Below are positions 2,393-33,397 of a DNA stretch of 64,000 bases, one piece after another. A program made the translations under genes and the position numbers. Every line of letters starts with the position of its first letter. The first letter of the stretch is position 1. The notes beneath the pieces are model-generated. The model saw only the letters and a list, made by a program, of their open reading frames with translations, did no database searches and was not told the origin of the DNA. Source of the stretch: Streptomyces prunicolor NBRC 13075 (GTDB lineage: Bacteria; Actinomycetota; Actinomycetes; Streptomycetales; Streptomycetaceae); contig NZ_BARF01000092.1 of NCBI RefSeq assembly GCF_000367365.1, forward strand, positions 2,528-66,527, given 5' to 3'.

Positions 2393-2857
2393 ATGGCGTC
2401 ATCTGTATCGCGGGCAGACCAGCGAGTGCACAGGGAAGGCCAGGCCGTCAGCCCGGGCACCGCCGCTCCGGCCGTCGACTGGAACGACCGGCTCGCCACC
2501 GCCCGGCCCGAGGAGTTCTCCGAGCTGTTCCACCAGGCGATCACGGAGGACTTCGGCGCGGTGGCCCGGCTGCACCAGATGCTCGAAACCGCCTCTCAGT
2601 GGTGCCGCGCGAACGGCGCCCGCGGCAGTGCCGTCGAGCTGGACGTCCTCGCCGACCGCCTGACCGACCTCGGCGAAGAGCTGCACCTCGTGGGAGAGGC
2701 CGTGGGCCAGGAGATCCACGCCCGCTCGCGTCGAACGGCAGCAGCCGCCCGTCTCTCCCCCGCCGTGTCAGTCCGCGGGACTTTCGTCGGTCGGCAGAGC
2801 GAGGCTCCTGCTCCTCTCCCACCGAACACCCTCCGCTCACTGCCGCGTTCGCGGTGA
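2393..2857 (+). CDS. Hypothetical helical protein with RSR-ending tail
   Basis: 154 residues when started at the ATG at 2393, which has the good ribosome site AAGGGAG at 2379-2385; an in-frame ATG at 2366 has none. The body (WNDRLATARPEEFSELF...) is predicted helical and acidic. The last 35 residues change to a Pro/Ala/Ser-rich basic tail beginning RRTAAAARLSPAVS and ending PRSR, one of the similar tails found on many proteins of this element. No enzyme motif is visible; function unknown. Confidence 0.7.
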   Translation: MASSVSRADQRVHREGQAVSPGTAAPAVDWNDRLATARPEEFSELFHQAITEDFGAVARLHQMLETASQWCRANGARGSAVELDVLADRLTDLGEELHLVGEAVGQEIHARSRRTAAAARLSPAVSVRGTFVGRQSEAPAPLPPNTLRSLPRSR

Positions 2858-2883
2858 ACACCGGCACAGGAACGAGGACAACC

Positions 2884-3573
2884 GTGCCCACCCCTCCCGC
2901 TTCCCACGAAACCCAGCCGTCGGTGAGCACCGACCCCCTGGCGTGGCGCCGGCACATCCCGGCTCTGGCCTCCGCCGCTGCCGGCATCAGGCAAGCCTCC
3001 AATGCCTGGGACGCGGTCTCGGACTCCTTCTGCGACCACGACGGCTGGCCCACCTACGAGGAGGACTATGCGGACGGCAAGGTGACACGCGACGCCGAAG
3101 CGTGGAAACACGTCGAGGTCTTCCTCGCCCACGGCCCCGAGGTCCTGGCCGGTGTCCGCAACGCCGCCAGCGGCGCCGACTACGTCGAGGGACCAATCAG
3201 CAACGACCTCCGGCGGCTGCGCGGAATCGACACCACCCTCGAACGAGCAGGCCAGATTCAACACGAGTGGGACCAGGTCATGGCCCTTATGGAGGGCTCG
3301 CAACCCGGCTCACTGGAGCTCTATGAGAGCCGGGCCAAGGAGATCCGCAACTCCGAAGGCTGGCACCACGCGGACGAGCTGTCCTTCCAGGGCCCGGCGC
3401 TTGTTCGGGCTGCCGACTACCTGGCCAACCGGATGGATGCCGACCGGCTTTCGCAGACCGACCGCGTCCAGGTCGCCCTCGCTCGATCCGCCTCCGGCGA
3501 CCGCGCGGTCCTGCCTGCTTCCCCGTCCGCGCCCGCAGTGCCGAACCCGCCGGTCCCTCGCCGGTCCCGCTGA
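2884..3573 (+). CDS. Hypothetical acidic helical protein with shared C-terminal tail
   Basis: 229 residues from a GTG at 2884 preceded by GAGG. The body is acidic and helical (FCDHDGWPTYEEDYADGK, VEVFLAHGPEVLAG) with no recognised domain. The C-terminus switches to a low-complexity basic segment starting DRVQVALARSASGD and ending RRSR, matching the tails on neighbouring genes. It follows the previous gene by 26 bp and is probably co-transcribed. Function unknown; a structural or substrate protein of the conjugation apparatus is possible but is inference only. Confidence 0.65.
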   Translation: MPTPPASHETQPSVSTDPLAWRRHIPALASAAAGIRQASNAWDAVSDSFCDHDGWPTYEEDYADGKVTRDAEAWKHVEVFLAHGPEVLAGVRNAASGADYVEGPISNDLRRLRGIDTTLERAGQIQHEWDQVMALMEGSQPGSLELYESRAKEIRNSEGWHHADELSFQGPALVRAADYLANRMDADRLSQTDRVQVALARSASGDRAVLPASPSAPAVPNPPVPRRSR

Positions 3574-3709
3574 CGTTGTTAGCACCGATCTGCGGCGCGG
3601 CCCAACCGGCCGATCGCCGGATCCTCGTGGAACGCCACCACCTCGACCCGCCCCCCACTCCGCGCCTCACGCCCTCAACCGCTGGAGTACCCGGCCACGG
3701 AGAACACTC

Positions 3710-4288
3710 ATGCACGCCGATCAACCCCTGGTCACCATCCAGCAGGAGGGCTCAGCCATCACCACGCGGACCAGCGGACCTCCACCCCAGCACGCCGCCG
3801 ACTCTCCGGAACGAGAACACGGATACGGACACCTCACCGCGCTCCTGCGCCAACGCGGCCTGAAGTGCACCGTCGAGTACGGCCTCAGCGACTACATCGT
3901 CTATGCCCAACTCCCCGACGGCAGCTCGCTGTTGATCTCGCCGCCCCAGGAACCGCCTACCGATCACCCACCCGGGCACCCCGAGAGCTGGATGGTGACC
4001 CGCGCGCACCCCGACAACTCCGCAATTCACGAAGTGCTCTACGACTCGGAACCCGACGGCCCCCAAGCCCGGCACGGTGGCAGCGTCCCGAGCCTGCTCA
4101 CCGCCATCGACGCGCGCCTGGATCAACTCGGTGTGCCTCGACGGGCGGAAGCTGCCTCACCGCGAGTGAGTGCTGCTCTCGCGCCCTCGCCGTCCGCCCA
4201 GCGCACGGTCCCAGCCCACCTTCCAGCGGCCCCGTCCGCCCGCCCGACGCTGCCGCCCACCCATCCCTCGTCCGCAGCCGCTCGCTGA
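3710..4288 (+). CDS. Hypothetical protein (DUF317-like fold?) with shared C-terminal tail
   Basis: 192 residues from the ATG at 3710. The middle (residues about 35-140) contains IVYAQLPDGSSLLISPPQ and ESWMVTRAHPDNSAIHEVLYDSEP, a beta-rich arrangement reminiscent of the DUF317-type proteins encoded at 32 and 34 kb, but too divergent for a firm call. The last 45 residues are a Pro/Ala-rich tail starting PRVSAALAPSPSAQ. 136 bp of apparently non-coding sequence precede it. Function unknown. Confidence 0.6.
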   Translation: MHADQPLVTIQQEGSAITTRTSGPPPQHAADSPEREHGYGHLTALLRQRGLKCTVEYGLSDYIVYAQLPDGSSLLISPPQEPPTDHPPGHPESWMVTRAHPDNSAIHEVLYDSEPDGPQARHGGSVPSLLTAIDARLDQLGVPRRAEAASPRVSAALAPSPSAQRTVPAHLPAAPSARPTLPPTHPSSAAAR

Positions 4289-4385
4289 CCGCGTCCCGCC
4301 CAGGAGTCCTCCATGTCCCTCACCAGCAGAACCATCCCGGCCCTCGACCGCCCTGCTCCCCGAGCCCGCACAGGATGGATCAGCC

Positions 4386-5159
4386 ATGCCCGCCCCCGAT
4401 CACGACTCGCGTCCCGACGTCGCAGTCGGCCACCACCCCGACTACGGCATCGTCGCCGCGAACCCCAAGCAACTTGCCGCCAGCACATGGATGTTGAAGC
4501 GTCTCGACTTCCATCCCGTCCCGGGCCGGCCGACGCTGTACGCACTGACCGACCAACAGCGTGACGGACAGGAGCGTGCCACCCGGGCCGTCGCGCTGCT
4601 GCGCAAGGCCGACTACCACGTTGATGCGGACGCCGCGTTCGACCCCTCACTCGCCTCCGAGGCACCTGCCACCCGTCACCAGCTTCCGCACGCAGAAGCA
4701 GACATCGCGTTCGCCGAGCATCCACAACTCGGCATCGTCGCATCCGCCGGCCACCGCTTCTCCGCGACCGGCGGCCGACTCGCCCTGCTGGACGAGGGCT
4801 GGCGGCACGATCCGAACGCGGGCGTCTACACCCTGCCCACCGCCATCGGGCGCACCGAAGCCTTGAGGAAGGTCGCCGACGTCACGTCGTCGATGCACCG
4901 GGCCGGCCTCCGAGCCGTAGCGGAACCCCTCCTCGCCCAGGACCTGGCGCCCTATCGGCAACCTGCGTCCACGCCGGCCGCACCCCGCGAACGCGGCCAA
5001 GGGCCCACCACCGGCAAGTTCTCCATCAGCGTGGCCGCGCTCGCCGTCAGCCCAGCCCGCGACGGCCTCGCGGACAAGGCGCCGGGTCCCGCTCCCGCCA
5101 CAGCTGCTCCCGCGTCCCGACCGGTCGACCCGCGCATCGCCTTCTCCCGCAACCGCTGA
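4386..5159 (+). CDS. Hypothetical protein with two internal repeats and shared tail
   Basis: 257 residues; the ATG at 4386 lies after AGGATGG. Two copies of a ~80-residue unit are visible: VAVGHHPDYGIVAANPKQL...LDFHPVPGRPTLYAL (about residues 12-90) and IAFAEHPQLGIVASAGHRF...WRHDPNAGVYTLP (about 110-190). Each carries HPxxGIVA, then a Gly/Asp-rich turn and YxL, then a helical segment (ALLRKADYHVDAD / DVTSSMHRAGLRAVAE). So it is an internal duplication of an alpha/beta domain. It ends with a basic tail containing ISVAALAVSPARD and finishing FSRNR. No catalytic residue pattern recognised. Confidence 0.65.
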   Translation: MPAPDHDSRPDVAVGHHPDYGIVAANPKQLAASTWMLKRLDFHPVPGRPTLYALTDQQRDGQERATRAVALLRKADYHVDADAAFDPSLASEAPATRHQLPHAEADIAFAEHPQLGIVASAGHRFSATGGRLALLDEGWRHDPNAGVYTLPTAIGRTEALRKVADVTSSMHRAGLRAVAEPLLAQDLAPYRQPASTPAAPRERGQGPTTGKFSISVAALAVSPARDGLADKAPGPAPATAAPASRPVDPRIAFSRNR

Positions 5160-5765: not shown

Positions 5766-5778
5766 AAGGGGCCTCGTT

Positions 5779-18395: not shown

Positions 18396-19667
18396 GTGAT
18401 CGCCCACCTGCAGCGCACCAGCAACACCTCCGGCCTGCTCACGTACCTGTACGGGCCGGGCGAGCGGGGTACCCACACCAGTCCTCGGCTGGTCGCGGGC
18501 GACGGCCACGGAGCCCCGATCGAACTGCTCGCCGAGCCTGAGTCGCTGCCCTATCTGGCCCAGGCCCTCGACGCACCCGTCGAGCGCCTCGGGGTCCGAG
18601 CACCCGAACGGCCGGTGTGGGTCTGCTCGGTCCGCTCCGACCCCCGCCGGTCGGACCCCACCGACTCGCAGTGGGCCGCCGTCGCCCGCCGCCTGGTGGT
18701 CGCCACAGGGATCGCGCCGGAAGGCGATCCGGACGCCTGCCGCTGGATCGCCCTGCGCAACCAGCCCCGGCAGGTGCACGTCGTGGCCACCCTCGCCCGT
18801 GAGGACGGCAGCCTCCACAACGCCTACCGCGACGCCTACCGCCTACAGACCGAGTGCCACCGCCTCGCAGTCGAACTGGGCCACCTGCCCACCGCTCCAC
18901 ACCCGATACCCCGCGCCCAGGAGACCCACGTGCCTGCCCGCTCCATCACCATCACCGCCGAACCCAGCGGCAGCGTCTCGGCGAAGGGCGCCGGCGACGA
19001 CCTCTCCGCCACGCTCCTCAAGCACGCCGGCTTCCAGCAGATCGAGGACTGGTACGGCCGACGCCACCGCCTTCCCACCACCACCCCGGCCGCTGACCGC
19101 GCCGCCATCGCCTCCCACGCGGCCGAGATGCTCCGCGCCGCCCGCTACGGAGTCGACCTTGACCCCTCCCTCGACACCACCCGGATCAGCACCGCGGCGA
19201 ACCCGCTCGGGCCCTACACCGCCGGAGCCGAACTCCTCCGTCTCACCGACCGGATCAGGTCTGCCGGGAACGGTGCCGACCTTCGACAGGCGGTCGACCA
19301 CCTCCTCCATCCCGAACACGGTGCGCTGGAACGTCTCCGGGAGGCGCTGGAGGCTGCGGGCGAGCAGATCACCGACCTCGACGACGAGGCGTACCAGCTC
19401 GCCGACCGGTTCGATGTCGCTGCGGAGTTCGTCAGCTCGGCGCAGTCCGAACTCGTCGGCTCGGGCGGCGAGTTGGGCCGTATCGGCAACGCGCAGCGGT
19501 CCGGGACCGAGGCGTGGGAGCGGTCCTCGGCACTCTCCGGCCCGCGAAGCGCCGCGCTGGCCACGTCGCCCGCAGCGGCCAAGGTCACCTCGGTCCTCGG
19601 CTCTGGAACAGCGGATGCGAGCGTGGCCGTACGTCCGTCGCAGGCACCCGATCCCCGGACGCGGTGA
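18396..19667 (+). CDS. Relaxase-like protein with degenerate catalytic histidines
   Basis: 423 residues from GTG 18396 (GAGG upstream). Residues about 10-160 align by eye with the N-terminus of the true relaxase at 36290-38062: SGLLTYLYGPGERGTH, VWVCSVRSDP, and IAPEGDPDACRWIAL. The relaxase has HVWHC and DHIHILATM; here these are PVWVC and RQVHVVATL, so most of the metal-binding histidines are gone. The C-terminal half has a small helical module (LLKHAGFQQIEDW...LRAARYGVDLD), a long helical region and a basic tail with SAALATSPAAAK. Probably a DNA-binding accessory or regulator derived from a relaxase, not a nicking enzyme. Its stop overlaps the next start. Confidence 0.65.
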   Translation: MIAHLQRTSNTSGLLTYLYGPGERGTHTSPRLVAGDGHGAPIELLAEPESLPYLAQALDAPVERLGVRAPERPVWVCSVRSDPRRSDPTDSQWAAVARRLVVATGIAPEGDPDACRWIALRNQPRQVHVVATLAREDGSLHNAYRDAYRLQTECHRLAVELGHLPTAPHPIPRAQETHVPARSITITAEPSGSVSAKGAGDDLSATLLKHAGFQQIEDWYGRRHRLPTTTPAADRAAIASHAAEMLRAARYGVDLDPSLDTTRISTAANPLGPYTAGAELLRLTDRIRSAGNGADLRQAVDHLLHPEHGALERLREALEAAGEQITDLDDEAYQLADRFDVAAEFVSSAQSELVGSGGELGRIGNAQRSGTEAWERSSALSGPRSAALATSPAAAKVTSVLGSGTADASVAVRPSQAPDPRTR

Positions 19668-20935: not shown

Positions 20936-20998
20936 CGAGCCGCTGAACTGCCCCGCCCTTCCTGCCCCTTCCCGCCGTTGCCGTCCGGAGGTCCTCCC

Positions 20999-22389: not shown

Positions 22390-22830
22390 GTGCCCGCACC
22401 GCGTACCAGCGCGCCGTCGACCACTACAGGGTCGGACGCGCTCCTCTACTTCCTCTTCGGCATGCTCGGCATGGCGCTCGCCTTCGGTTCGCTGGCGTGG
22501 CTGTCCGGCAGTGTCACCAACTCCCTTTCCGGTACTGGCCCTTGGGCGCCGTTCAGTGCCACCGACGCACTACTTCACCCCAGGGCGCTGTGGCCGCACT
22601 TGAGCCCCCTGGCGCTGCTGATCGGCGCGCGGATCATCCCCGGCCTGCTGTCCGCCTTCCTCACCGCGCTCGCTCTCGTGCTGTGGATGCGGCTGCGCGG
22701 CGGCACGAAGAACGGCCTCGCCCGGAAGGCCGACCTCGCCCCGCTGCTGGACAAGGAGATCACCGCCAAGGCGAGGAGCCTGCGGCCGTCCCTGAGCGGC
22801 CGGGAGGGTAAAAGAGGTCGCGCCTGCTGA
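22390..22830 (+). CDS. Type IV coupling protein, N-terminal membrane part (frameshifted)
   Basis: 146 residues from GTG 22390 (AGGA upstream). Two membrane segments are clear: ALLYFLFGMLGMALAFGSLA and LIPGLLSAFLTALALVLW-like residues about 75-100, followed by a basic cytoplasmic stretch ending KARSLRPSLSGRE. This is the membrane anchor of a VirD4/TraG-type coupling protein. The frame then runs into a stop at 22828-22830, while the next frame, open from 22796, continues with VAPADRGILLGAL and SWEDVIVAIMAPRSGKT. So one gene has been split by a +1 type frame change at about 22800-22825. Confidence 0.7.
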   Translation: MPAPRTSAPSTTTGSDALLYFLFGMLGMALAFGSLAWLSGSVTNSLSGTGPWAPFSATDALLHPRALWPHLSPLALLIGARIIPGLLSAFLTALALVLWMRLRGGTKNGLARKADLAPLLDKEITAKARSLRPSLSGREGKRGRAC

Positions 22831-22894
22831 CCGCGGCATCCTGCTCGGCGCCCTCTCTCCGGGCCGGGCCGACGTCCGTGCGTCCTGGGAGGAC

Positions 22895-24178
22895 GTGATC
22901 GTGGCGATCATGGCCCCGCGGAGCGGGAAGACCTCCGGACTGGCGATCCCCGCGATCCTCGCGGCTCCTGGCCCGGTGTTGCTGACCTCCAACAAGGCGG
23001 CGAACGATGCCTTCACCGCGACGGTGGACGCCCGCGCCGAGGTCGGCACGGTCTGGGCCCTCGACCCCCAGCAGATCGCCCACCATCCGCGCGAGATGTG
23101 GTGGGACATCCTGGCCGACGCCCGCGACCTGGCCGGGGCGAAACGTCTCGCCGGGCACTTCGTCGCCGCCAGCGTGGACGAGTCGAACGGCTCCGACTTC
23201 TGGTCCACCGCCGCCAGCAACACCCTCGGCGCGCTGTTCCTCGCCGCTGCCAGCAACCGGCGTCCGATCACCGACGTCCTGGCCTGGCTCGCCTCCCCCG
23301 CCGACCGGACCCCGGTCGACCTGCTCACCGACGCCGGCCACGACGCGGTCGCCGCCCAGCTCCAGGGCACCGTCAGCGGAGCTACCGAGACGCGGGACGG
23401 AATCTACGAGACCGCGCGGCAGTACGCGAGCTGTCTCCTCGACCCGGACGTCGCGGCCTGGGTCACGCCCAGCAAGGACCTCCCCGAGTTCAAGCCGTTC
23501 ACGTTCGCCACGTCCCGCGACACCCTGTACCTGCTGAGCAAGGACGGCGGCGGCAGCGCGAGCGCCATCATCGCGGCAGCGGCCGACGCCGTGATGCGCG
23601 CGGCCGTGGTCGTCGCCGAGCGCTCCGGCGGGCGGCTCGACCCGCCCGCGCTTTGCGTCCTCGACGAGGCCGCGAACGTCTGCAAGATCTCCGATCTCCC
23701 CGACCTGTACAGCCACTTGGGCAGCCGGGGCGTCATCCCGATGACGATCCTGCAGTCCTACCGGCAGGGCCAGCGCTGCTGGGGCGAGGCCGGAATGGAC
23801 GCCCTCTGGTCCGCCGCCACCATCAAGATCATCGGAAGCGGTATCGACGACGCCGACTTCGCCGACCGACTCAGCAGGCAGGTCGGTGACCACGACGTCC
23901 AGACCACCTCGGTCTCGACCAGTGAGAGCGGCAAGTCCACCTCGGTCAGCATGCGCACCGAGCGGATCCTGCCCCCGGACGCGATCCGCGCGCTCCCCAA
24001 GGGCAAGGCGCTGCTGCTCGCCACCGGCATCCGGGTCGCCATGCTCGACCTGCGGCCCTGGTACAAAGAGCCGTCCGCCAAGGTCGTCGGCCCGGCCTCG
24101 GCCCGCGCGACGAAGGCCATCACCGAGCGGGCCCTCGCCAAGTCCCTGGGCCGCGACAATTTCGGGCTGTCGGCATGA
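22895..24178 (+). CDS. Type IV coupling protein (VirD4/TraG-type), ATPase part
   Basis: 427 residues from the first GTG in this frame, though coding sequence extends back to about 22800. Walker A is IMAPRSGKTSGLAIP, Walker B LCVLDEAANVC near residue 250, followed by GVIPMTILQSYRQG and a C-terminal VGDHDVQTTSVS segment typical of actinobacterial TraG/TraD proteins. Coupling proteins link the relaxosome to the mating channel. With its membrane anchor in another frame, the product may be absent unless the split is an assembly error or translation recodes. Stop overlaps the next start (ATGA). Confidence 0.8.
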   Translation: MIVAIMAPRSGKTSGLAIPAILAAPGPVLLTSNKAANDAFTATVDARAEVGTVWALDPQQIAHHPREMWWDILADARDLAGAKRLAGHFVAASVDESNGSDFWSTAASNTLGALFLAAASNRRPITDVLAWLASPADRTPVDLLTDAGHDAVAAQLQGTVSGATETRDGIYETARQYASCLLDPDVAAWVTPSKDLPEFKPFTFATSRDTLYLLSKDGGGSASAIIAAAADAVMRAAVVVAERSGGRLDPPALCVLDEAANVCKISDLPDLYSHLGSRGVIPMTILQSYRQGQRCWGEAGMDALWSAATIKIIGSGIDDADFADRLSRQVGDHDVQTTSVSTSESGKSTSVSMRTERILPPDAIRALPKGKALLLATGIRVAMLDLRPWYKEPSAKVVGPASARATKAITERALAKSLGRDNFGLSA

Positions 24179-24405: not shown

Positions 24406-25577
24406 ACCCACTGCTGCGCGCCGAACAGGCGGTCCTCGGGTCGGTGCTGCTCGACCCCGGCCAGCTCGCGCACCTCGACTGGCTCGCCCCGGATCACTTC
24501 TACCGGCCAATCCACCAAGCGCTGTTCGCCGCCCTGCGCAAGCTGCGAAACGACGGCCACCCCGCGCTGGCCGCCGAGACATCCGTACCGCCGCTGTCCT
24601 GGGTGACCGACGCGGTCGACGAGGCCAGTCGCCACGTCCGGGGGCTGACCGCCGCCTACCCCCACACCCTGATCTCGGCCTGCCCTCGCTCCGAACACGC
24701 CCCGGTCTACGGCCGCATGGTGCTGGAGGGCGCGATCCACCGCAGCATCACGGAACACGCGATCCGCCTCCACCAAGCAGCCCGTGCCGACGCCCTGCGG
24801 GGCGAGGTCGAGGGAGCCCTGCATTCCGCGGAGGTACTGACCGGCGTCCTCAACGATCTCGCACGGCGTTGGGGCACCGAACCGCGCCCCGTCGCGCCAA
24901 CTCTCCCGCCCTCCACCACCACCGTCGTCCCGGCGCCGGTCCGAGCCGACCAGGTCGCCGAGGACGAGCGGTTCCTTCTGGCCGTCCTTGCTGAGCGTCC
25001 GGGGGCCATGGAGGAGGTGGTCGGCTGGCTGCGGCCGGGCGACTTCGTCGTCCCGGCCCACGGGCAGCTCTACCGCTGTCTCGGCGCACTGCACCATCGG
25101 GGCGAGCCCATCGACCGGATCACCCTGCTCTGGGAAGCCCAGCAGCGCGGGCTCCTGGCCGACGGCAACCTCACCGACGACCAAGTCACCGCCATCTGCG
25201 ACGGTGTGGGCGCGGGCAGCGCCGAGTGGCTCGGCGAGCAGGTCATGCGCTCCTCGGTCACCCGCACCGCCGCCGCCTCCGCACACGCCGTCCGGTCGTT
25301 GGCGGAGAACCAGACGCTGGCCCCCGGGCGGCTCATCAACCACGCCCTGCACGCACTCGCCCCGCTCGACGACGTGCGTACCCGCTGGCAGGCCGCGAAC
25401 GGCCGCCCCGCTCCGCCGCCGACGGCCCCTGCTCTCGCACCGACCGGGACTCCGCCTGCGCAGGTGCGTGCCGCGCTCTCCCGCAGCACACCGCGGGCAT
25501 CGCCGCCGCCCTCGGCGCGGCCCGGTTCGGCGCCCATCCCGGCCGCCGCGCGACCGCCTTCACGCGGCCACAGATAG
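24402..25577 (+). CDS. Protein with two DnaB N-terminal-like domains, no helicase core
   Basis: 391 residues. Domain one (about 1-150) starts LLRAEQAVLGSVLLDP with LDWLAPDHFYRPIHQALF, the standard DnaB-N pattern. Domain two (about 185-310) repeats it: DERFLLAVLAERPG, VGWLRPGDFVVPAHGQLYRC and IDRITLLWEAQQRG. DnaB-N domains mediate hexamer formation and contacts with primase and loader. There is no RecA-like helicase domain, so it may bind or block the host helicase or load it on element DNA. It ends in the shared basic tail (VRAALSRSTPRASPPP...RGHR). Confidence 0.75.
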   Translation: MNPLLRAEQAVLGSVLLDPGQLAHLDWLAPDHFYRPIHQALFAALRKLRNDGHPALAAETSVPPLSWVTDAVDEASRHVRGLTAAYPHTLISACPRSEHAPVYGRMVLEGAIHRSITEHAIRLHQAARADALRGEVEGALHSAEVLTGVLNDLARRWGTEPRPVAPTLPPSTTTVVPAPVRADQVAEDERFLLAVLAERPGAMEEVVGWLRPGDFVVPAHGQLYRCLGALHHRGEPIDRITLLWEAQQRGLLADGNLTDDQVTAICDGVGAGSAEWLGEQVMRSSVTRTAAASAHAVRSLAENQTLAPGRLINHALHALAPLDDVRTRWQAANGRPAPPPTAPALAPTGTPPAQVRAALSRSTPRASPPPSARPGSAPIPAAARPPSRGHR

Positions 25578-25606: not shown

Positions 25607-26194
25607 ATGGAATTCACCGTGAACAACACCCCCATCGCCGACGCTCTGGCTCTGCGTGCCACGGCCTCAGTCTTCGACGCCCAGCGCAGGAAACTGCCAG
25701 GCCCCGGAGGCCTTCACCGTTCGCCCGACAGCGTCGCCGTCGCCAAGCAGATCTCCGAACTCGGCCAGCTGATAACCGACTTGGGCGACGAGGTCCTCTT
25801 CCGGGCTGCCGCCCAGGGCCAGGAGGCCCACGCTGCGCGGGTCATCACCAGCTTCGCCGCCGCTGTACGGCCTGCCGGCGAAGCGGCATCCGCTCTCGGA
25901 GCAGTAGCCCACCAGCTCTCCTTCCTGCACCAGACCGAGCACCTCGGCAACCAGCCCGACGCCCGGGATGCCCGGGAAGCAGCGGCACGGGTGATGGACG
26001 ACGCACTCGGTGCGGCGGACACCGCCCTTCGCGAAGCCGCCGACTCCCTTCGCGCCGCATCGGCGACGGTTACGCCTCCGGCCGTGCGGCTCCAGGCCGC
26101 CCGCCACCGGTCTACGACCGCAACTCCCGCTCCACCTTCCGCTGATGCCCCGGCCATAGCACTCGCCCCGGCCCGGACGACGCGGAGCCGGTGA
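25607..26194 (+). CDS. Hypothetical helical protein with shared tail
   Basis: 195 residues from ATG 25607; a GTG at 25619 is an equally good start. Almost entirely helical and Ala-rich (VAVAKQISELGQLITDLGDE, ALGAVAHQLSFLHQ, ALREAADSLRAASA), consistent with a coiled-coil or helical bundle. The end switches to AVRLQAARHRSTTATPAPP and finishes TTRSR, the tail type seen on its neighbours. Function unknown. Confidence 0.65.
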   Translation: MEFTVNNTPIADALALRATASVFDAQRRKLPGPGGLHRSPDSVAVAKQISELGQLITDLGDEVLFRAAAQGQEAHAARVITSFAAAVRPAGEAASALGAVAHQLSFLHQTEHLGNQPDARDAREAAARVMDDALGAADTALREAADSLRAASATVTPPAVRLQAARHRSTTATPAPPSADAPAIALAPARTTRSR

Positions 26195-27393: not shown

Positions 27394-27485
27394 CGCTCTC
27401 TACAGGGATTGCCCGGCCGCACCAAATCGCGGTTTCTGCGGACCCTCGTCGGCATGTCGCCGTCCCACAGATGGAGCACGCCCAC

Positions 27486-28091
27486 ATGTCCGACAGCAGC
27501 AAGACCACCCCCGCCCCGGAGCCGTTCCGCGTCCCCGACGAGGACCTCGACGACCTCGCCAGCACCCTCGCCAAGACCATGGCCGAGGTCAGGCAGCACG
27601 GTGTCATCCTCGACCGCCTGGGCTCCGAACCCGATCCCGAGCCCGCAGCATCCCGGCCGGAGGACGGCGCCCCGACAGCAGAGACGGCCAACTCCGAGCA
27701 AGTGGACGGCCCCGCCTCGGTGTTCATCCTCGCGCTGGGCGGCGAGGCGTACACCGTCGAACTCGCCGCCCTCAGCGACTGGGTGAACTACCTCTTCCTC
27801 CCGGTGTACGGCAGGGAGATCAGCACGAGCCGCCCGTGGTGCGCGCAGTGGCACGAACACCCCGAGGCCGTCGCCCGGCTGCACGCCCTCTGGCTCGCGT
27901 GGCAGCAGCTCACGGATGCCGAGGCCGGCTTGTCCGGTCCTTCGGTGTGGCACCGCGACCACCTCGACCAAACGCTCGTCCATCTCCGTGCTCCCGACGG
28001 CCCCTTCGCCGCCTGCACGACGAGCCCGACCCGGCCCAACCACCGCGTGCTGGCCACCCCCGCACCCGAGCAACTGGGACTGGCGGCATGA
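27486..28091 (+). CDS. DUF4913-like protein
   Basis: 201 residues from ATG 27486. A disordered acidic N-terminus is followed (about 85-180) by WVNYLFLPVYGREIS, WCAQWHEHPEAVARLHALW, and WHRDHLDQTLVHL...GPFAAC, which is the DUF4913 pattern (WVxxxLxPxY, WCxxWxxHPEAVxRL, WxRDHxD). The domain is widespread in actinobacterial conjugative elements and its biochemical role is unknown. Its stop overlaps the next start (ATGA). Confidence 0.75.
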   Translation: MSDSSKTTPAPEPFRVPDEDLDDLASTLAKTMAEVRQHGVILDRLGSEPDPEPAASRPEDGAPTAETANSEQVDGPASVFILALGGEAYTVELAALSDWVNYLFLPVYGREISTSRPWCAQWHEHPEAVARLHALWLAWQQLTDAEAGLSGPSVWHRDHLDQTLVHLRAPDGPFAACTTSPTRPNHRVLATPAPEQLGLAA

Positions 28092-28963
28092 GCAACGAAC
28101 CCGCCTTCGGCCCCTACGACTTCGGTCCCTACGAATTCGAGCCCAACGACGCGGGCTCCAAGGACACGGAGCAAGGGTTTTGGCCCGGCGACTTCATGGC
28201 CGACGAACTCGACTTCCGTCTCGACGATTTGGAGCCCGCCGACGCGGCCTCCGAACGCGCCGAGCAAGGGCTCTGGCCCGGTGACCTGACGGTCCTGGCC
28301 CAACACCACACCACGCCCAACGGCTCGCACAGCTTCGTCGTCGCCCACGACCGATCCATCACCTGGGGCATCCCGGGCGAACCGCAGGTAGCGGCGATCA
28401 TGGTCGCGCGGGATCTCAGCCTGAACACGTTCACGTTCGAGTCGAGCTATCACGCCACCTTGGCCTTCGCCCAGAACTGGCTGATCGAACGCGGCTGCCC
28501 ACCCGAATCGATCACTCAGGTCGGCGGGGACTTCATGAAGCCCGCCGACGAGCTCACTGTCCGGATCGAGCAGCAGATCCGGGAGTCGGCCGCCCGCTAC
28601 GAGGTCCTCGACAGCCAGACCTCGGACTTCGACCCGTGTGAAACGTGGACGCTGACACGGGACTCCAGTGCTGCTCAGGCACCGATTCGGGTCTTCCTCG
28701 AAGAGGGCGACACGGACGCCCACACGTACACGATGCGCGAGGGCGCCTTCGCCGACGAGGACGCCGCCCGCAACTGGCTGGACGACCGCACCGGTCCTCT
28801 GCCGCAGCCGCCGGAATACCGCGACGAGGCAGCCGCCCTCCGAGCCGGTGCTGCCCTCACCCGGTCGGCCGGTGTGTCCGCGCTCCCGAAGGCCGGCCTC
28901 GATGCCCACCACGTGCCGCCGACAGAAACGGCCCGGCAGCAGGGTTCTCGGAGGTCGATGTGA
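28088..28963 (+). CDS. Hypothetical protein with N-terminal repeat and shared tail
   Basis: 291 residues. The N-terminus holds two copies of an acidic ~21-residue unit: FEPNDAGSKDTEQGFWPGD and LEPADAASERAEQGLWPGD. The middle (about 70-240) is an alpha/beta domain with SFVVAHDRSITWGIPGEPQ and a long helix (YHATLAFAQNWLIERGCP). The end (RAGAALTRSAGVSALPK... RRSM) carries the AALxRS tail. Overlaps its neighbours on both sides by four bases. No catalytic motif recognised. Confidence 0.7.
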   Translation: MSNEPAFGPYDFGPYEFEPNDAGSKDTEQGFWPGDFMADELDFRLDDLEPADAASERAEQGLWPGDLTVLAQHHTTPNGSHSFVVAHDRSITWGIPGEPQVAAIMVARDLSLNTFTFESSYHATLAFAQNWLIERGCPPESITQVGGDFMKPADELTVRIEQQIRESAARYEVLDSQTSDFDPCETWTLTRDSSAAQAPIRVFLEEGDTDAHTYTMREGAFADEDAARNWLDDRTGPLPQPPEYRDEAAALRAGAALTRSAGVSALPKAGLDAHHVPPTETARQQGSRRSM

Positions 28964-29436
28964 GCCGCGCCCGCTTCGCCTTCGCCGCACACCCGGACGC
29001 CATCACGGACCTGCGTGAACTCCCCGACAAGATAAGGGACTTGGCGCTGCTGGAACTGCAGAATCTGGTCCACGGAAGCGACGACTGCCTGCCGCTGAAG
29101 GGCCGCCTCGCAGGTTTCCACAAAGTCTACGTCGACCCGTCCGTCTCCTACCGGATGGTCATCCAGTTCCGTCCGGCCCCGCCCACCTCGACCCACAAGC
29201 GCGAGATCTATCTCGTCGCCGCCGGCAGCCGACAGGACTACGAGGTCTACCGCTCGGCCCACCTCCGAACCGACCCCCTCCAGGACACTGCGACGGCCTC
29301 CGCCGCCGAGGCCCGCGTCCAGGCCGCTCGATCCCGCTCTCCCCACGCGGTCGATCAGCCGACGGCTGTCGCTCCATCTCGTCCAACGGCGGCTCAGCCC
29401 GCTGCCTCCGCGTCCCGAAAGGCTCCCCAGCGATGA
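28960..29436 (+). CDS. RelE/ParE-superfamily-like protein with C-terminal tail
   Basis: 158 residues from GTG 28960, overlapping the previous stop. Residues 1-95 follow the RelE/ParE/HigB fold: N-terminal helix region (AITDLRELPDKIRDLALLEL), PLKGRLAGFHKVYVDPS, SYRMVIQF, then REIYLVAAGSRQDYEVYRSA. Such domains are mRNA interferases or gyrase poisons when toxic. No antitoxin-like gene adjoins it, and it carries a ~50-residue extension (ARVQAARSRSPHAV... APQR) of the shared tail type. So it may not be a classical toxin. Coupled to the next gene by ATGA. Confidence 0.6.
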   Translation: MSRARFAFAAHPDAITDLRELPDKIRDLALLELQNLVHGSDDCLPLKGRLAGFHKVYVDPSVSYRMVIQFRPAPPTSTHKREIYLVAAGSRQDYEVYRSAHLRTDPLQDTATASAAEARVQAARSRSPHAVDQPTAVAPSRPTAAQPAASASRKAPQR

Positions 29437-30101
29437 CCGCCACCCGCGCCCCCATGGCCTGTAGCGAACTGGCGGGCCTCCTCACCGATGCCGCACAGAG
29501 CGTCTCCGGGATCCTCACCACCGAGTACCCGACGGCCGTCAGCCGCTCCTACCTGCACCCCGTGTTGGGTGCGTTGTCCGCCGGGCCTCGGGTGGTCTGC
29601 GAGCTGAACGACCGGTTCGAAGGCTTCGTGGCCGACGCGCCGCTCCCCACCACACCCGCAGGTCTCTTCACCCTGGCCTCCTACGCCTCCGCGCTGGGAT
29701 GGCTCACCGAATCCCTCGCCGAACTGACCACCTCGGTCGACCAGATCTGCACGCGCGTGGGCATCCCCGCGCAACCGCCGGAACGGGCCTCGACAGCGCC
29801 CGCAGGCATTAGGGCTGACAGCGAGTCCGAATTCGCCTTCAACGCAATGGAGTTGGCCGCAATTCGCACCGCCGCCGAAGCTGCCGGTCTGCCGCCGGGC
29901 GACTACGTCGAGGTGCTCTCCGAGTCCCTGCTCGCGGCCTCCCGGATCACCGACGCCTGCATGGAGATCTCCAGCGGTCTCCTCGACGACGCCGCGTACG
30001 TCCTCGGCGAGGCGACCGCCCACGTCCGGATCGGTGACGGCCCCGACAGCCTTCCCACCCTGGTCCGTTCGCTGCTCGCCCGGATGGAGGCCGCCGAATG
30101 A
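29433..30101 (+). CDS. Hypothetical helical protein, 222 residues
   Basis: Helical throughout: ELAGLLTDAAQSVSGILTTE, GWLTESLAELTTSVDQI, AMELAAIRTAAEAAG, ITDACMEISSGLLDDAAYVL. Domain family not recognised. It lacks the shared basic tail, ending VRSLLARMEAAE. Overlaps both neighbours by four bases, so it is translated as part of a coupled series from 28088 to 30925. Confidence 0.65.
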   Translation: MTATRAPMACSELAGLLTDAAQSVSGILTTEYPTAVSRSYLHPVLGALSAGPRVVCELNDRFEGFVADAPLPTTPAGLFTLASYASALGWLTESLAELTTSVDQICTRVGIPAQPPERASTAPAGIRADSESEFAFNAMELAAIRTAAEAAGLPPGDYVEVLSESLLAASRITDACMEISSGLLDDAAYVLGEATAHVRIGDGPDSLPTLVRSLLARMEAAE

Positions 30102-30925
30102 ACCCCCACGACGCGACCAAACGGCCCGGCGCCCACCTCGTCGCCGAGATGCTCGGCGTCGAGGACCCCTGGACCCTCAACGTCCGCTATCGGCCGAGTG
30201 ATCCGCTGTACCGCGCCTCAACGCTCGTCATCGGGACCGCCCACGAACTCGACGAACTGCACGGCCGGGTGACTCGCGCGACCCAGGCCGCTCTCGGAGT
30301 GCTCGAACCCGTCGGGCGAGGCGAATTCAACGGTTCACCCAGCTCGTACGAACCGGTGCGGTCTGCGGTCCAGCAGATCGGCCGACTCGTCTCGGCGCAG
30401 AACGCGACCTACGAGCGGCTCGTGCAGTCGATCGTCGCGTACCGTCGTCTCCTCCCCGAGCCGAACCCTGCTCCGCCCTCACACACCGAGGCCCGCGACC
30501 AGGACAACGGACAGGTCTCCGGCCGCGACGATGACTGGGCCGTGTCCGCTGATCTCCGGCTCAGGGCCCTGGAAGCCGTCGAGGCCGGCGGACTGCGGTT
30601 CCACCAGAGCGGGGTCTACGGCTACATCTCTCTCTCGGACGCGCGCGGCGAGCGCCTCGCCGACAGGGTCTGGCCCGAAACCGTCCAACGACTGATCGCC
30701 GCCGGGCTGTTGGACCGGGACACCAGCGAGGGACTGTACCGGCCGGGACAACTCATCTCCCTCACCCCGAAAGGCGAGGCAGCCCTGCGAGACGCGGGCA
30801 CGGCCACGCCGCGCGTCTCCGCCGCCCTCAACCGCAGCAACACCACGACGCTCCCCGGCACCACCGCCGACCCAGCTGTCGTACCCGCACCAGGCGCGGC
30901 CACCAAGCCCTCCCGTTCCCGCTGA
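30098..30925 (+). CDS. Hypothetical protein with winged-helix-like C-terminal domain and shared tail
   Basis: 275 residues. The first 120 residues are helical (TAHELDELHGRVTRATQAAL). Residues about 145-230 look like a winged helix: LRALEAVEAGGLRFHQ, TVQRLIAAGLLDRD, YRPGQLISLTPKGEAALRD. The end PRVSAALNRSNTTTLP...SRSR is a clear example of the shared tail. Possibly a DNA-binding regulator, inferred from fold only. Confidence 0.65.
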   Translation: MNPHDATKRPGAHLVAEMLGVEDPWTLNVRYRPSDPLYRASTLVIGTAHELDELHGRVTRATQAALGVLEPVGRGEFNGSPSSYEPVRSAVQQIGRLVSAQNATYERLVQSIVAYRRLLPEPNPAPPSHTEARDQDNGQVSGRDDDWAVSADLRLRALEAVEAGGLRFHQSGVYGYISLSDARGERLADRVWPETVQRLIAAGLLDRDTSEGLYRPGQLISLTPKGEAALRDAGTATPRVSAALNRSNTTTLPGTTADPAVVPAPGAATKPSRSR

Positions 30926-30954
30926 TCCCCCTCCCCCCAGAAAGAACGTCCCCC

Positions 30955-31788
30955 ATGCCCACCCCCGTACAGTCCTCCGCCTCCTCGATCGGCTCGGTCG
31001 ACGCTCAGCGCGTAGAGGACGCGTTCTTCCTCATAGCGCCGAAGTGGACGACCTGGTCAGCGCAGACCCTGGCGCAGCACGGTCGCCCAATGCGTGTGCG
31101 TGACGTCGCCGCCGGGCTCCCCTTCGTCAGCGAGCAGCTCGTCAGCAAGCGGCTGGCCCAGATGCACACGGACGGGCTGGTCACCCGAACCAACGACGGC
31201 CACGGTGCCCCGTACCAGCTCAGCGCCTTCGGCGAATCCCTGGCACCGGTGCACCGCGCCCTGGCGGACTGGTCCCAGACCAACCTCTCACTCGGCAACG
31301 TAGCCGGAGCAGAACGCGCCGAGAACGCCGTACGACGTCTGTTCCTTCGGCATTCAACCACCGTGATCCAGATCCTCGACGCGGGCACCACGCGGTTGGG
31401 CCACATCGCCGAAGCGGCTGGCCTAGACAGCGGCACAACCCGCCAACGACTCAGCCGACTTGAGGCCGACGGCCTGGTCGCCCGCACCGGACCGCGCCAC
31501 GGCGACCCCTACGTCCTGACCGACGCCGGACGAGCACTGGGCCCCGTCTACGCAGCCGTCGAACACTGGAGCACCCCCTTCTCGTCGCCAAGGCACCCGT
31601 CGCCCCCGGCCCCCGCAGCCACCCGGACCCACACCGGCGTGCCGCTCGGGGCGGACGGCAACCGGACCACAGCGGCCCTGCGCCGGAGCACCGCCGCGCC
31701 GAGCGCCTTCTTCAGCCACGCACCGCAGCCGCAACCGCGGGTGCCGGCGTCCGTCACCGCGCGGTCGGCCGTCTCCCGAGCCCGGTGA
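30955..31788 (+). CDS. Tandem HxlR/MarR-like winged-helix protein with shared tail
   Basis: 277 residues. Two winged-helix domains in a row, each with the HxlR pattern. First (about 25-105): WTTWSAQTLAQHG, FVSEQLVSKRLAQMHTDGLV, APYQLSAFGESLAPVHRAL. Second (about 120-200): STTVIQILDAGTTRLGHIAE, TTRQRLSRLEADGLVAR, DPYVLTDAGRALGPVYAAV. The C-terminal ~70 residues are disordered with TTAALRRSTAAPSAF and end VSRAR. Likely a DNA-binding protein of the element. One chain with two domains could mimic the dimer normally formed by HxlR proteins. Confidence 0.75.
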   Translation: MPTPVQSSASSIGSVDAQRVEDAFFLIAPKWTTWSAQTLAQHGRPMRVRDVAAGLPFVSEQLVSKRLAQMHTDGLVTRTNDGHGAPYQLSAFGESLAPVHRALADWSQTNLSLGNVAGAERAENAVRRLFLRHSTTVIQILDAGTTRLGHIAEAAGLDSGTTRQRLSRLEADGLVARTGPRHGDPYVLTDAGRALGPVYAAVEHWSTPFSSPRHPSPPAPAATRTHTGVPLGADGNRTTAALRRSTAAPSAFFSHAPQPQPRVPASVTARSAVSRAR

Positions 31789-31904
31789 TCCGCGTGGCAC
31801 CGAGAACCAGCCGCGCCTCCCCGTTGCCACGGCGCCCACGTGCAGTCCAGCAGCCCTCCCTCTGCGCGAAGGCGCGTCCCCCTCCTACGCCCCGGAACCC
31901 GACC

Positions 31905-32846
31905 ATGAGCACCCAACTGCCCTACGATCAGCGCGACTTCCCGGATGTACTGGTCAGCCCCCGGTACCTGGCCGGCTCCAACGGGTCCGGAGAAGCCGGC
32001 TTCGCCCCCGTCGCCCACTGGCCCCACCACCACCTCGACGAGGGCCCCTGCCAGCTCCTCGTCACCTCGCCCGACCAGCGGATCCGTATCGGCTGGTTCG
32101 GCGACGACTTCGAGCTGTGGAAGATCACGGCATCCCCGGAGGCCGTCTCCGCGCCCCGCTGGACGGCGACCTTCAACCATGTCACCCCGGCCGAGATCGT
32201 CGCAGGTCTCACCACCGCCCTGGCAAACGACTACGCCGAAGCCGACCCCTACGAGGGCAACGGGCGTTTTCTGGCGAACCCCTCGCTGTACTGGGCCGAC
32301 GCCGTCCGACCGCTGACCGAAGCCGGCTGGCGCCGTGAGGCGGCCGAGCGCGGCACTGTCGAGATCGTCGCCCCCGACGGGCAGGCAGGCGTCCTGATCG
32401 ACAACCGCCTCTCCACCTGGGACGACGAAACCGTCACGCTGTGGGCTGGTCCACCGGGCTGGCGCACACGCGCTGAGGCCGTCTTCACCGCCCGCACCCC
32501 GTCCCACCTGATAGCCGCGACGGCAGCCGCCATGACCGATCCAGCCCAGGTGATCCGCGAGCGGCACCAACTCGCCCGTGAGGTCCAGCACTTGGTCACG
32601 CTCACCCCCGTCGGCCCGGCCGTCCCCCAGGTCTCTCGCGCTCCGACCCCACTCGACGTGCGCCGTACCCCTGTCGCCCAGGCCGTCCACCGCGCCGCAT
32701 GCACCCCGCAGACAGCCGCCGACCTCCGGATCATGGCCGCCCGCAGCCGCACGGCGACGTCGACTCAGATCCGGTCGAGCAAGTCCGCGCACAGCCCCGG
32801 GGCCCTGCCGCCGGCCATCTCGCCCGCCCAGCGCCACAGCCGCTGA
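31905..32846 (+). CDS. DUF317-like protein with shared tail
   Basis: 313 residues from ATG 31905; the upstream frame to 31785 is poor. Domain one (about 10-115) reads VLVSPRYLAGSN, LLVTSPDQRIRIGWFGDD, and WTATFNHVTPAEIVAGLTTAL, the DUF317 pattern. A second diverged copy (about 120-225) repeats it: GTVEIVAPDGQAGVLI, WRTRAEAVFTARTPSHLIAATAAAM. The end LRIMAARSRTATS...RHSR is of the shared tail type. DUF317 proteins are Streptomyces-specific and functionally uncharacterised. Confidence 0.75.
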   Translation: MSTQLPYDQRDFPDVLVSPRYLAGSNGSGEAGFAPVAHWPHHHLDEGPCQLLVTSPDQRIRIGWFGDDFELWKITASPEAVSAPRWTATFNHVTPAEIVAGLTTALANDYAEADPYEGNGRFLANPSLYWADAVRPLTEAGWRREAAERGTVEIVAPDGQAGVLIDNRLSTWDDETVTLWAGPPGWRTRAEAVFTARTPSHLIAATAAAMTDPAQVIRERHQLAREVQHLVTLTPVGPAVPQVSRAPTPLDVRRTPVAQAVHRAACTPQTAADLRIMAARSRTATSTQIRSSKSAHSPGALPPAISPAQRHSR

Positions 32847-32908
32847 TCCTCAGGGCTCCGAGGCCACCTCTGACCGAAACAACACCCCCGAATGCCGGGA
32901 GTTCCGCC

Positions 32909-33397
32909 ATGCCCGACGCCACCGCGCTCGACCAAGCGACCGCCATGATCGAGAAAGCCTGGGGCCGCCCCATCGACGACCTCGAAGCCCTCGCGGTCCG
33001 CCGCCCCAACAACGACCCTCTCCTGCGCTCGGCCATGCACATCCGCTCGGCCCTGGTCATCACCAACAACGCCGTGGCCGTGCACCAGGACCGTCTGCAC
33101 GCCCTTACCCGGCCCGGCCACGTGCCGGCCTTCTACGAGCTGGAACGGATCACCAGCACGGCGGCGGACCTTCGCGTCGCCCAAGCGGAGAGCCGTACGT
33201 CCCTGCAGGCCATCAGCCACGTGATCGAAGCGCGTGAAGCCGCCGCGACCGCGGACCGGGCCCCAGCAGTCCGCCTGGCCCAGGCCGCTGTCGCCCGCTC
33301 CGCGCACGCTCCACGCGCCCTGGGCCAGGCGCCCAATCAACTCGCGCCTTCAGCCGTTGTCGGCCCGTCGGTGGCCGGACTGGGGCCGCACCGCTGA
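32909..33397 (+). CDS. Hypothetical helical protein with shared tail
   Basis: 162 residues; ATG 32909 follows GGGAG. Helical (LDQATAMIEKAWGRP, RSAMHIRSALVITNNAVAVHQ, FYELERITSTAADLRVAQA). The end VRLAQAAVARSAHAPRALGQ...GPHR belongs to the shared tail type. Its stop is four bases from the stop of the opposing gene at 33402. Function unknown. Confidence 0.65.
   Translation: MPDATALDQATAMIEKAWGRPIDDLEALAVRRPNNDPLLRSAMHIRSALVITNNAVAVHQDRLHALTRPGHVPAFYELERITSTAADLRVAQAESRTSLQAISHVIEAREAAATADRAPAVRLAQAAVARSAHAPRALGQAPNQLAPSAVVGPSVAGLGPHR

Follow-up and report, generated by a model that had tools for sequence, protein, structure and literature searches.

Why should proteins of different folds, encoded side by side in a conjugative element, all end in the same way? 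The question is raised by a 64,000-nucleotide stretch of Streptomyces prunicolor NBRC 13075 (contig NZ_BARF01000092.1, positions 2,528 to 66,527), hereafter the window, in which a first-pass annotation made from the letters alone listed a common C-terminal tail on unrelated proteins. We examined the reality of this tail, its distribution among related elements and the roles it may have.

A bipartite C-terminal module

All 12 cited C-termini are found in the sequence exactly as quoted. Together with a probable thirteenth, on gene 2366, which was absent from the first list, they represent one bipartite module. The core has the consensus R-V-x-A-A-[L/R]-[A/S]-R-S-[P/T/A], starts 35-44 residues before the stop in the 12 cited tails, and is followed by a Pro/Ala-rich linker and then an Arg-rich tip. 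The tails of the window are:

2735..2854, + strand: gene 2366-2857 (163 aa, without known domain); divergent core TAAAARLSPAV, tip LPRSR
3463..3570, + strand: gene 2884-3573; core RVQVALARSAS, tip PRRSR; family F24, 9 elements
4163..4285, + strand: gene 3710-4288; core RVSAALAPSPS, tip SAAAR; resembles family F40 tails
5025..5156, + strand: gene 4386-5159; core ISVAALAVSPA; family F17, 11 elements
19542..19664, + strand: gene 18396-19667, relaxase paralogue; core PRSAALATSPA, tip DPRTR
25461..25574, + strand: gene 24402-25577 (DnaB-N); core QVRAALSRSTP; family F2, 16 elements
26087..26191, + strand: gene 25607-26194; core RLQAARHRSTT, tip TTRSR
28841..28960, + strand: gene 28088-28963; core RAGAALTRSAG, tip SRRSM; family F4, 16 elements
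29314..29433, + strand: gene 28960-29436; core RVQAARSRSPH, tip KAPQR; family F10, 12 elements
30812..30922, + strand: gene 30098-30925; core RVSAALNRSNT, tip KPSRSR; family F27, 8 elements
31663..31785, + strand: gene 30955-31788; core RTTAALRRSTA; family F12, 12 elements
32727..32843, + strand: gene 31905-32846 (DUF317/SPDY); core RIMAARSRTAT, tip QRHSR; family F7, 12 elements
33275..33394, + strand: gene 32909-33397; core LAQAAVARSAH, tip GPHR; family F29, 6 elements

The core is a real and recurrent motif. With a model built from the other 11 tails and applied to the last 70 residues, the cited core was the top-scoring site in 12 of 12 cases. For nine C-termini at most 30 of 2,000 own shuffles score as well; the tails of 4386, 18396 and 31905 are weak singly (354, 177 and 467 matching shuffles of 2,000, respectively). 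In a profile search of the own genome, in which 150 of 753 candidates were scored, the 12 training tails were recovered at E <= 4e-6 and the best other match at E = 0.13; away from the element and from a second copy of it, no scored candidate did better. The tails of this second copy, on contig C34, are absent from the output of that search, and one of them surfaces with a wider profile (E = 7e-4). The tail of gene 2366 is preserved both in the C34 copy (L033) and in S. angustmyceticus (L031:12795-13265).

The layout is regular. In a set of 112 tails, admitted at 30-50 residues from the stop, all but one place the start of the core at 36-44 residues, the exception being at 33. R is the last letter of 79 of 113 tails, the charge after the core is net positive in 98% of them, and 95 carry no more than a single acidic residue within their last 40, compared to 23 of 231 controls. 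The tip of 4386, DPRIAFSRNR, is strongly conserved.

The hosts are diverse and soluble, with a median of zero predicted membrane segments in every tail family. Most of the host labels given at first pass hold: the product of 24402 matches DnaB-N (PF00772) in two stretches, that of 30955 has tandem HxlR/MarR-type winged helices (and an unusually conserved tail linker), and 31905 encodes a DUF317 protein. The RelE-like label for 28960 finds no support in Pfam, NCBIfam, PHROGs or a PDB sequence search; a single-sequence structure model of this protein is of too low quality to judge the fold. Gene 18396, initially left unlabelled, encodes a relaxase paralogue with altered catalytic motifs, for which a PDB sequence search gave no significant match. 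Tails like that of 25607 are found on proteins of similar length in three other genomes (G091, G110 and G146). Elements carry several DUF317-like proteins, and some tail hosts are paralogues; a literature search for DUF317 gave no paper.

The tails belong to a T4SS element

The tails cluster with the genes of a type IV secretion system (T4SS), whose parts in the window include:

857..2362, + strand: ATP-binding protein of family F13, without tail, in the T4SS gene row; role assigned from position
22390..24178, + strand: VirD4/TraG-type coupling protein, without tail, split over two frames, with the membrane part at 22390-22830 and the ATPase part at 22901-24178; the gene has an AAAA site
36290..38062, - strand: catalytic relaxase (PF03432) with intact DHIHI motif; Arg-containing end, without core

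Coupling-protein domains PF12696 and PF02534 (22895-24175) are of the VirD4 type, as in a T4SS integrative conjugative element; this protein is a candidate receptor for the tail. The relaxase is adjoined by a family F15 gene (38062-38574), which gives the pair of relaxase and mobilization protein; in S. angustmyceticus, the gene next to the relaxase is annotated MobC. An AAA+ protein and its neighbour (5779-8780) were considered as tail readers and set aside: in the S. angustmyceticus element, whose tails are retained, no counterpart is annotated at the equivalent position. Related elements sit on plasmids and on chromosome-sized contigs.

Constraint and spread of the core

In 17 related element copies, with VirD4 proteins 84-100% identical to that of S. 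angustmyceticus, pooled pN/pS is 0.33 for the core, 0.43 for the folded parts, 0.67 for the linker and 0.55 for the last six residues; the threshold used (core score >= 4.5 at 30-50 residues from the stop) excludes members with lost tails and hence biases the comparison in favour of the core. The core is also retained in further elements whose VirD4 identity to S. angustmyceticus goes down to 78%.

A total of 34 loci were read, namely these 17 copies and 17 further ones, using a survey threshold of score >= 7 at 30-52 residues from the stop. Genes were called with a purpose-built codon-usage caller, which missed the real genes 3710 and 25607 of the window. By a model trained on these tails, the core is found in 106 of 113 rows of 11 tail families versus 0 of 274 non-tail-family rows, and in none of 80 T4SS machine proteins or 231 controls. 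The first-pass annotation had proposed to ask whether matches to a tail profile are C-terminal and clustered near VirB4/VirD4 genes. The matching tails are C-terminal, a VirD4 match spanning 350 residues or more is present at 27 of the 34 loci, and random Ala/Pro-rich C-termini do not match equally often.

Tallies from the profile searches are lower bounds, since part of the first-look candidates was scored: 35 per genome in the search matching 36 genomes (stretches of 13 read besides our own) and at most 36 in the wider-profile search matching 26 (17 read besides our own). Among 345 genomes from the class, the search gave a single weak match outside the window's family (G400, E = 8.8e-4), with at most 21 first-look candidates scored and a sensitivity that recovers only 4 of the 13 window tails. 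The 3.1 kb examined around the G400 match contain no called gene bearing a core, and neither do 40 kb of G587, which also has a profile match. In G582 and G588, F32-like membrane proteins reach a score of 9.1, but with the site 60 residues away from the end.

The core follows one VirD4 clade

In a tree of 48 VirD4 proteins, 26 of the 28 rows of one clade (clade A) have at least three core tails and the remaining two have 2, while outside it 1 of 20 rows reaches three (score >= 8 at 33-50 residues from the stop; VirD4 match of at least 350 residues required). G624, G655 and G600, with 9, 7 and 5 core tails, stand outside the tree, having no such VirD4 match in the stretch examined. Searching from the opposite side, 10 clade-A loci were found by VirD4 similarity (72-96% identity); a core tail lies within 3.3-4.8 kb in 8 of them, and the short flank of the other 2 holds no tail.

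In the sister clade, with proteins assigned by best match, 59 of the 71 closest to a clade-A tail family retain a Pro/Ala-rich basic end and 5 of 71 the core, compared to 4 of 81 and 0 of 81 for those closest to a non-tail family. By the stricter measure (charge >= 3 in the last 25), such an end is present in 49 of 113 clade-A tail-family rows, which makes it a weaker feature of clade A than of its sister; at a cut-off of charge >= 2 the count is 75 of 113.

Relaxases with and without the core

Relaxases are the substrates of conjugative T4SSs. The core occurs, at the same distance from the end, in 34 of 80 relaxases from loci whose examined flanks show neither VirD4 nor any further recognised gene of this T4SS, and in 5 of about 1,295 other genes there; these 80 relaxases are related, and the query itself was found via its tail. 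The other 46 fall below the core threshold, some being degenerate versions and two incomplete proteins. The structure alignment of relaxases covers 30 of the 80, 25 of them core-bearing. Agrobacterium VirF has the arginine spacing R-x7-R-x-R-x-R; it occurs in 0 of the 113 tails and 0 of the 80 relaxases.

The T4SS elements' own catalytic relaxases present a different picture: of 17 picked by motif pattern, a count that leaves out the core-bearing relaxase of G636, none has the core and 13 have a basic Pro/Ala end. A VirD4 with 70% identity or more shares the genome with core-bearing relaxases in 11 of 27 genomes, against 3 of 20 (one-sided p = 0.054), a pairing that is suggestive only.

Possible functions of the tail

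That unrelated element proteins and hitch-hiker relaxases end alike suggests that the tail is probably an address label admitting proteins to the cell-to-cell transfer channel. We favour, with reasonable though far from full confidence, a C-terminal signal that recruits proteins to this T4SS through its VirD4-type coupling protein and probably serves in their translocation as well, best read as specific to the VirD4 clade. The first-pass annotation had offered either a transfer tag or docking onto one complex; the relaxases at T4SS-free loci, which are the strongest lead, the single VirD4 clade and the absence from machine parts speak for the transfer tag, while export itself is predicted from sequence patterns. 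Other observations go against the favoured reading: the elements' own catalytic relaxases lack the core, 46 of the 80 relaxases at T4SS-free loci fall below the core threshold, the basic end is the weaker in clade A, 2 of the 10 VirD4-found loci show no tail in the short flank, and several hosts resemble regulators that could act in the donor.

Under the favoured reading, the core would fold into a short helix some 40 residues before the C-terminus, recognised by the cognate coupling protein, and the disordered Arg-containing remainder would engage or thread into the translocase. The element would tag a set of soluble accessory proteins, some of them DNA-binding (DnaB-N, winged-helix, DUF317 and relaxase-like); brought to the transfer channel or kept there, these might assist establishment of the incoming element. 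Mobilizable elements may put the signal on their own relaxase and so use the channel of a helper. VirD4 binding, translocation and a function in the recipient are inferred roles. In its fullest form, which we put forward tentatively and with slightly more doubt than belief, a dozen or more motif-marked proteins would be exported with the DNA into the recipient, mobilizable elements would pirate the channel via the relaxase motif, and core and tip would form a modular address tag for conjugation in actinobacteria, with a specificity that tracks the VirD4 clade.

The most mundane alternative is the composition bias of GC-rich DNA, a caveat already raised at first pass. Tails are indeed rich in A, P, R and S, yet the own-genome search, the leave-one-out test, the controls and the constraint on the core all go against this explanation, which we regard as hardly credible. 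Common ancestry by recombination or duplication within the element, with little function of the tail itself, would account for the one tail layout, the clustered genes and the paralogy of some hosts. It would not predict that the core is constrained like the folded parts while the linker drifts, that it persists in the more distant elements, or that relaxases at loci without this T4SS bear it; we find such shuffling very improbable.

The remaining alternatives grant the tail a function of another kind. It could be a donor-side docking tag that binds one hub (coupling protein, relaxosome or regulatory scaffold) without export. A short conserved motif next to a variable linker has the look of a docking motif, a number of the hosts have a DNA-binding or replication-like character (DnaB-N, winged helix, DUF317 and the relaxase paralogue), and the same motif could dock a relaxase onto the coupling protein. 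By itself, however, docking leaves unexplained the Arg-rich tip with its scarce acidic residues and the basic ends of the sister clade after core loss, and we rate it as possible but unlikely. Bacterial C-terminal disordered tags also serve in proteolysis, localisation or condensates, and the tail might be such a signal, read by the cell, on element proteins. Nevertheless, it accompanies T4SS elements and relaxases, and the single weak match outside the window's family among the 345 genomes, even given the limited sensitivity, makes a general host reader unlikely; we consider this explanation quite improbable.

If the recruitment signal is correct, a motif readable from sequence would immediately list candidate delivered proteins, suggest which conjugative helper serves which mobilizable element, and provide a short tag with which proteins could be delivered from one actinomycete to another.

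Comparison with known systems

Searches of the open-access literature yielded no substrate signal shared by T4SS elements of Streptomyces. In a survey of actinobacterial T4SS-type integrative conjugative elements (PMC3218068), elements likewise have a VirD4-type coupling protein, a VirB4-like ATPase and a relaxase. That survey is restricted to MOBF/TrwC relaxases, unlike the PF03432 (MobA/VirD2-like) relaxase of the window, and the portion of its text considered here mentions no tail.

Positively charged C-terminal signals are described for VirB/D4 substrates, namely Agrobacterium VirF, VirE2 and VirE3 and the C-terminal 48 residues of MobA (PMC10025392). As here, these signals are C-terminal and basic; they are also portable and found on a relaxase as well as on unrelated proteins of one system (PMC10025392), features that the present tail would share. 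Unlike the VirF signal, the tails of the window have a conserved AA[LR]xRS core about 40 residues before the end. The BID domain with its positively charged tail, on Bartonella effectors and some relaxases, is likewise bipartite and occurs on effectors as well as on relaxases of conjugation (PMC10025392); here about 11 residues take the place of a folded domain, and Pfam scans of the 13 window tail hosts gave no BID match. The XVIPCD of the Xanthomonas X-T4SS is also C-terminal, present on several effectors and needed for VirD4 interaction (PMC10025392). It is distinct from the present module, with about 120 residues and a Gln-rich tail compared to about 40 residues and 3.2% Gln in the last 40.

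A precedent that favours the recruitment reading is an F-type system in which, in addition to TraI, 16 further plasmid-encoded proteins are translocated, and in which fusing a reporter to positively charged C-termini generally favoured its transfer (PMC11288057). In F plasmid pED208, conjugation delivers many element-encoded proteins, as the present system would; no common sequence motif is described for them in the part of that study drawn on here (PMC11288057), whereas one motif marks the set of the window.

The C-terminal tail in the window

The first-pass annotation had proposed that many unrelated proteins of the conjugative element end in a common tail. All 12 cited tails are present in the window sequence, gene 2366 probably carries a 13th, and the core starts 35-44 residues before the stop in 13 of 13. 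Scored with a model of the other 11 cores, the cited core ranks as the best site in 12 of 12. For nine of the 12 tails, no more than 30 of 2,000 shuffled versions of the C-terminus match the real score; those of genes 4386, 18396 and 31905 are singly weak in this test. Composition bias had been named as a possible mimic. A profile search of the bacterium's own genome (11.76 Mb) gave E <= 4e-6 for the 12 training tails, and no other match scored better than E = 0.13, with scores computed for 150 of the 753 first-look candidates. Together with the leave-one-out and shuffle tests, this answers the concern.

The element and its relatives

Domain scans and gene calling place a + strand T4SS element, to which a row of accessory genes also belongs, in the first part of the window.

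Features of the window
376-2362, + strand: DUF6238 and ATP-binding protein of the T4SS element
18396-19667, + strand: relaxase paralogue with core tail; H-x-H motif = QVH, WHCS motif = WVCS
22390-24178, + strand: VirD4/TraG-type coupling protein (PF12696, PF02534)
22810-22813, + strand: AAAA at the VirD4 frame break
36290-42807, - strand: relaxase (PF03432), MobC-like gene, DUF2637 protein and IstB/DnaC-like ATPase

Related elements are found on plasmid p1 of Streptomyces angustmyceticus (locus L031) and in Streptomyces sp. BHT-5-2 (L032). The bacterium's own genome holds a partial second copy on contig C34 (L033, 11,262 bp; 90% identity over the compared stretch), which keeps three genes with tails. 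The 12-tail profile did not report these tails in its own-genome search; a wider profile (43 tails) recovers one of them (E = 7e-4).

The - strand module resembles relaxase loci without a T4SS. It may be a later acquisition, and the window element may have arisen when a T4SS element and a mobilizable element fused.

At 5779-8780, amid the tail genes, lie a MoxR-like AAA ATPase (PF07728) and, next to it, a protein that by eye resembles a VWA domain toward its C-terminus, Pfam giving no match; no counterpart is annotated at the corresponding position of the S. angustmyceticus element. At 19721-22231, a transporter-like gene (called MFS by eye; median of 9 predicted membrane segments in its family) and an ATP-grasp enzyme gene lie after the relaxase paralogue and before the coupling protein, with relatives in four element copies, counting the window's. 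In S. angustmyceticus, a gene annotated in the record as a Shedu anti-phage protein (L031:17144-19213) sits between the 4386 counterpart and the relaxase paralogue, so that this gap resembles a site for cargo genes.

The core is conserved and the linker diverges

Going by the named relatives, the genus is taken here as Streptomyces and the family as Streptomycetaceae. The profile has matches at E <= 0.01 in 36 of 199 genomes of the genus, the bacterium's own among them. Thirteen other genomes have two to four matches inside about 25 kb, and their surroundings were read. Adding the window, the C34 copy and two plasmid loci brings the set to 17 element copies, which hold 113 tails across 12 orthologue families. 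The first-pass annotation had proposed asking whether profile matches are C-terminal and clustered near transfer genes; the tails recur C-terminally, grouped in T4SS elements of relatives.

The family-weighted core reads R (0.69), V (0.43), any residue, A (0.89), A (1.00), L (0.65) or R (0.24), A or S, R (0.67), S (0.91) and P, T or A. It begins 36-44 residues before the stop, most commonly 40, in 111 of the 112 tails of the selection analysis. Pooled pN/pS is 0.33 in the core, 0.43 in folded parts, 0.67 in the linker and 0.55 in the last six residues, and mean identity is 80%, 72%, 54% and 69%, respectively; members with a C-terminus score below 4.5 were excluded, which somewhat favors the core. 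The exception is the family of tandem winged-helix gene 30955 (F12), with a conserved linker.

With the trained model, the core is found in 106 of 113 rows of 11 tail families, and in none of 274 rows of other element families, 80 T4SS machine proteins and 231 controls. Each tail family has a median of zero predicted membrane segments. The hosts include DnaB-N, tandem winged-helix and DUF317 proteins, labels of the first-pass annotation with which domain assignments agree, as well as relaxase paralogue 18396; for most hosts, Pfam, NCBIfam and PHROGs give no family match. The altered motifs of the paralogue indicate that it is probably not catalytic. Five copies were found by motif pattern, and more family members besides.

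The core follows the coupling-protein clade

In a tree of 48 VirD4 proteins, core-rich elements fall on one side of a branch with support 97/88. At least three core tails are found in 26 of the 28 rows of this clade (clade A) and two in each of the others; outside it, one of 20 rows (G709) has three. Because tails had led to most of the rows in this clade, loci found by VirD4 similarity are a fairer test. In eight of 10 such loci (72-96% identity), one or more core tails occur within 3.3-4.8 kb, with 11 tails in 36 called genes; the loci come from genomes selected for a relaxase, and one (L243) also appears in the tree, as row G717_78.

For the sister clade (VirD4 identity 61-69%), 59 of the 71 proteins best-matching clade A tail families retain a basic end rich in Pro and Ala, and 5 of the 71 have the core; for proteins matching non-tail families, the counts are 4 and 0 of 81. 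Within clade A, 49 of 113 rows pass a strict basic measure and 75 of 113 a milder cut. Remoter VirD4 loci (29-56%) have at most one core match apiece at the tree threshold. The basic disordered end is shared between clades and the core is clade-specific, as expected if the cognate coupling protein reads the core.

The VirD4 gene of the window is split into two frames, with the break right before the Walker A motif, and likewise in several elements. At the break, 9 of 9 judgeable split copies have AAAAGAGGTCGC; AAAGAGGTCGC stands at that place in the single-ORF S. angustmyceticus copy, and three further single-ORF copies carry other sequence (18 of 31 elements were unmatched by the search pattern). 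The break is a candidate site of programmed +1 frameshifting (AAA_AGA) or of transcriptional slippage.

Tails in other genera and on separate relaxases

The wider profile matched 26 of 200 genomes of the family (6 of 17 genera). Of 345 genomes sampled from the class it matched 4, and a single one of these, with a weak match, belongs to another family: tails are present in other genera of the family and hardly outside it. Another 17 loci, all but one in other genera, have 607 called genes, of which 117 score at least 7, with the core 30-49 residues before the stop in 108; among 316 control genes, 3 reach that score, one at that distance. Diverged elements (G687, G659 and G655) keep both the core and its distance unchanged, on longer host versions too.

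In two genomes (G636 and G647), the matches are relaxases (PF03432) with a DHIHI motif, in loci without recognized genes of this T4SS; in the G636 locus, a MobC gene (PF05713) and an integrase-like gene accompany the relaxase. Scanning contigs with the G636 relaxase gave 80 relaxase loci, 76 titled Streptomyces. Scored by a model trained solely on element tails, 34 of the 80 relaxases have the core, 30-52 residues from the end; this set is biased, the query having been discovered via its tail and the 80 being mutually related. Several remaining relaxases have degenerate cores (for example RARAAQARTSV). VirD4, SCO6880-like and VirB6-like genes of this T4SS were found in none of the 80 loci (flanks up to 10 kb per side), and a MobC-like gene in 63. 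Among about 1,295 other genes of these loci, five reach the core threshold, none a genuine-looking tail by eye.

In an alignment of 30 relaxases (25 core-bearing), conservation is 0.72 in the domain, 0.70 in the core, 0.33 in the linker and 0.47 in the last six residues, and R predominates at the final three positions. The pattern of the element tails recurs here. A structure model of one relaxase (L212; mean pLDDT 81) places the core in a short helix of its own (514-525, moderate confidence), while the end (526-551) lies mostly below pLDDT 50. Core-bearing relaxases share a genome with a VirD4 of at least 70% identity in 11 of 27 genomes, compared to 3 of 20 (one-sided p = 0.054), which is only suggestive of co-presence.

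A recruitment signal or a docking tag

The tail is a selected bipartite C-terminal module, borne by at least a dozen element proteins and by relaxases of separate loci. Judging from sequence, its best explanation, to which we give somewhat better than even credence, would be a signal for recruitment to the T4SS and probably for translocation. The core on relaxases is the discriminating evidence: a conjugative T4SS takes the relaxase as its substrate (as a review states, PMC10025392), so the core there is most simply read as a signal for recruitment or translocation. The main rival is docking without export, and that several hosts look like regulators counts against an export signal. Also to be weighed, the core is absent from 17 of 17 catalytic relaxases of T4SS elements (picked by motif pattern), 13 of which have a basic Pro/Ala end. 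For these, either the basic end would suffice, or a partner with a tail would couple them, for which the altered relaxase paralogue is a possible candidate.

Comparison with known signals

The arginine spacing of VirF, a substrate of a VirB/D4 system, occurs in none of the 113 tails. We found no report of this tail in the open-access literature, judged by titles and abstract openings. No such tail is named in the available portions of a survey of actinobacterial ICEs (17 putative T4SS-type ICEs, PMC3218068) or of a Streptomyces ICE study (PMC9513070), and a recent T4SS review mentions Streptomyces, in its accessible part, in the context of TraB-type transfer (PMC12857230). Basic C-terminal signals are described for VirB/D4 systems (PMC10025392). 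Bartonella effectors and some relaxases combine BID with a basic tail and Xanthomonas uses XVIPCD (PMC10025392), whereas the tail here comes with neither a BID domain nor a Gln-rich XVIPCD. In an F-type system, 16 plasmid-encoded proteins besides TraI are reported to be translocated, and transfer was generally supported by cloned C-termini carrying positive charge (PMC11288057). By analogy, the tail would act like these known C-terminal T4SS signals.
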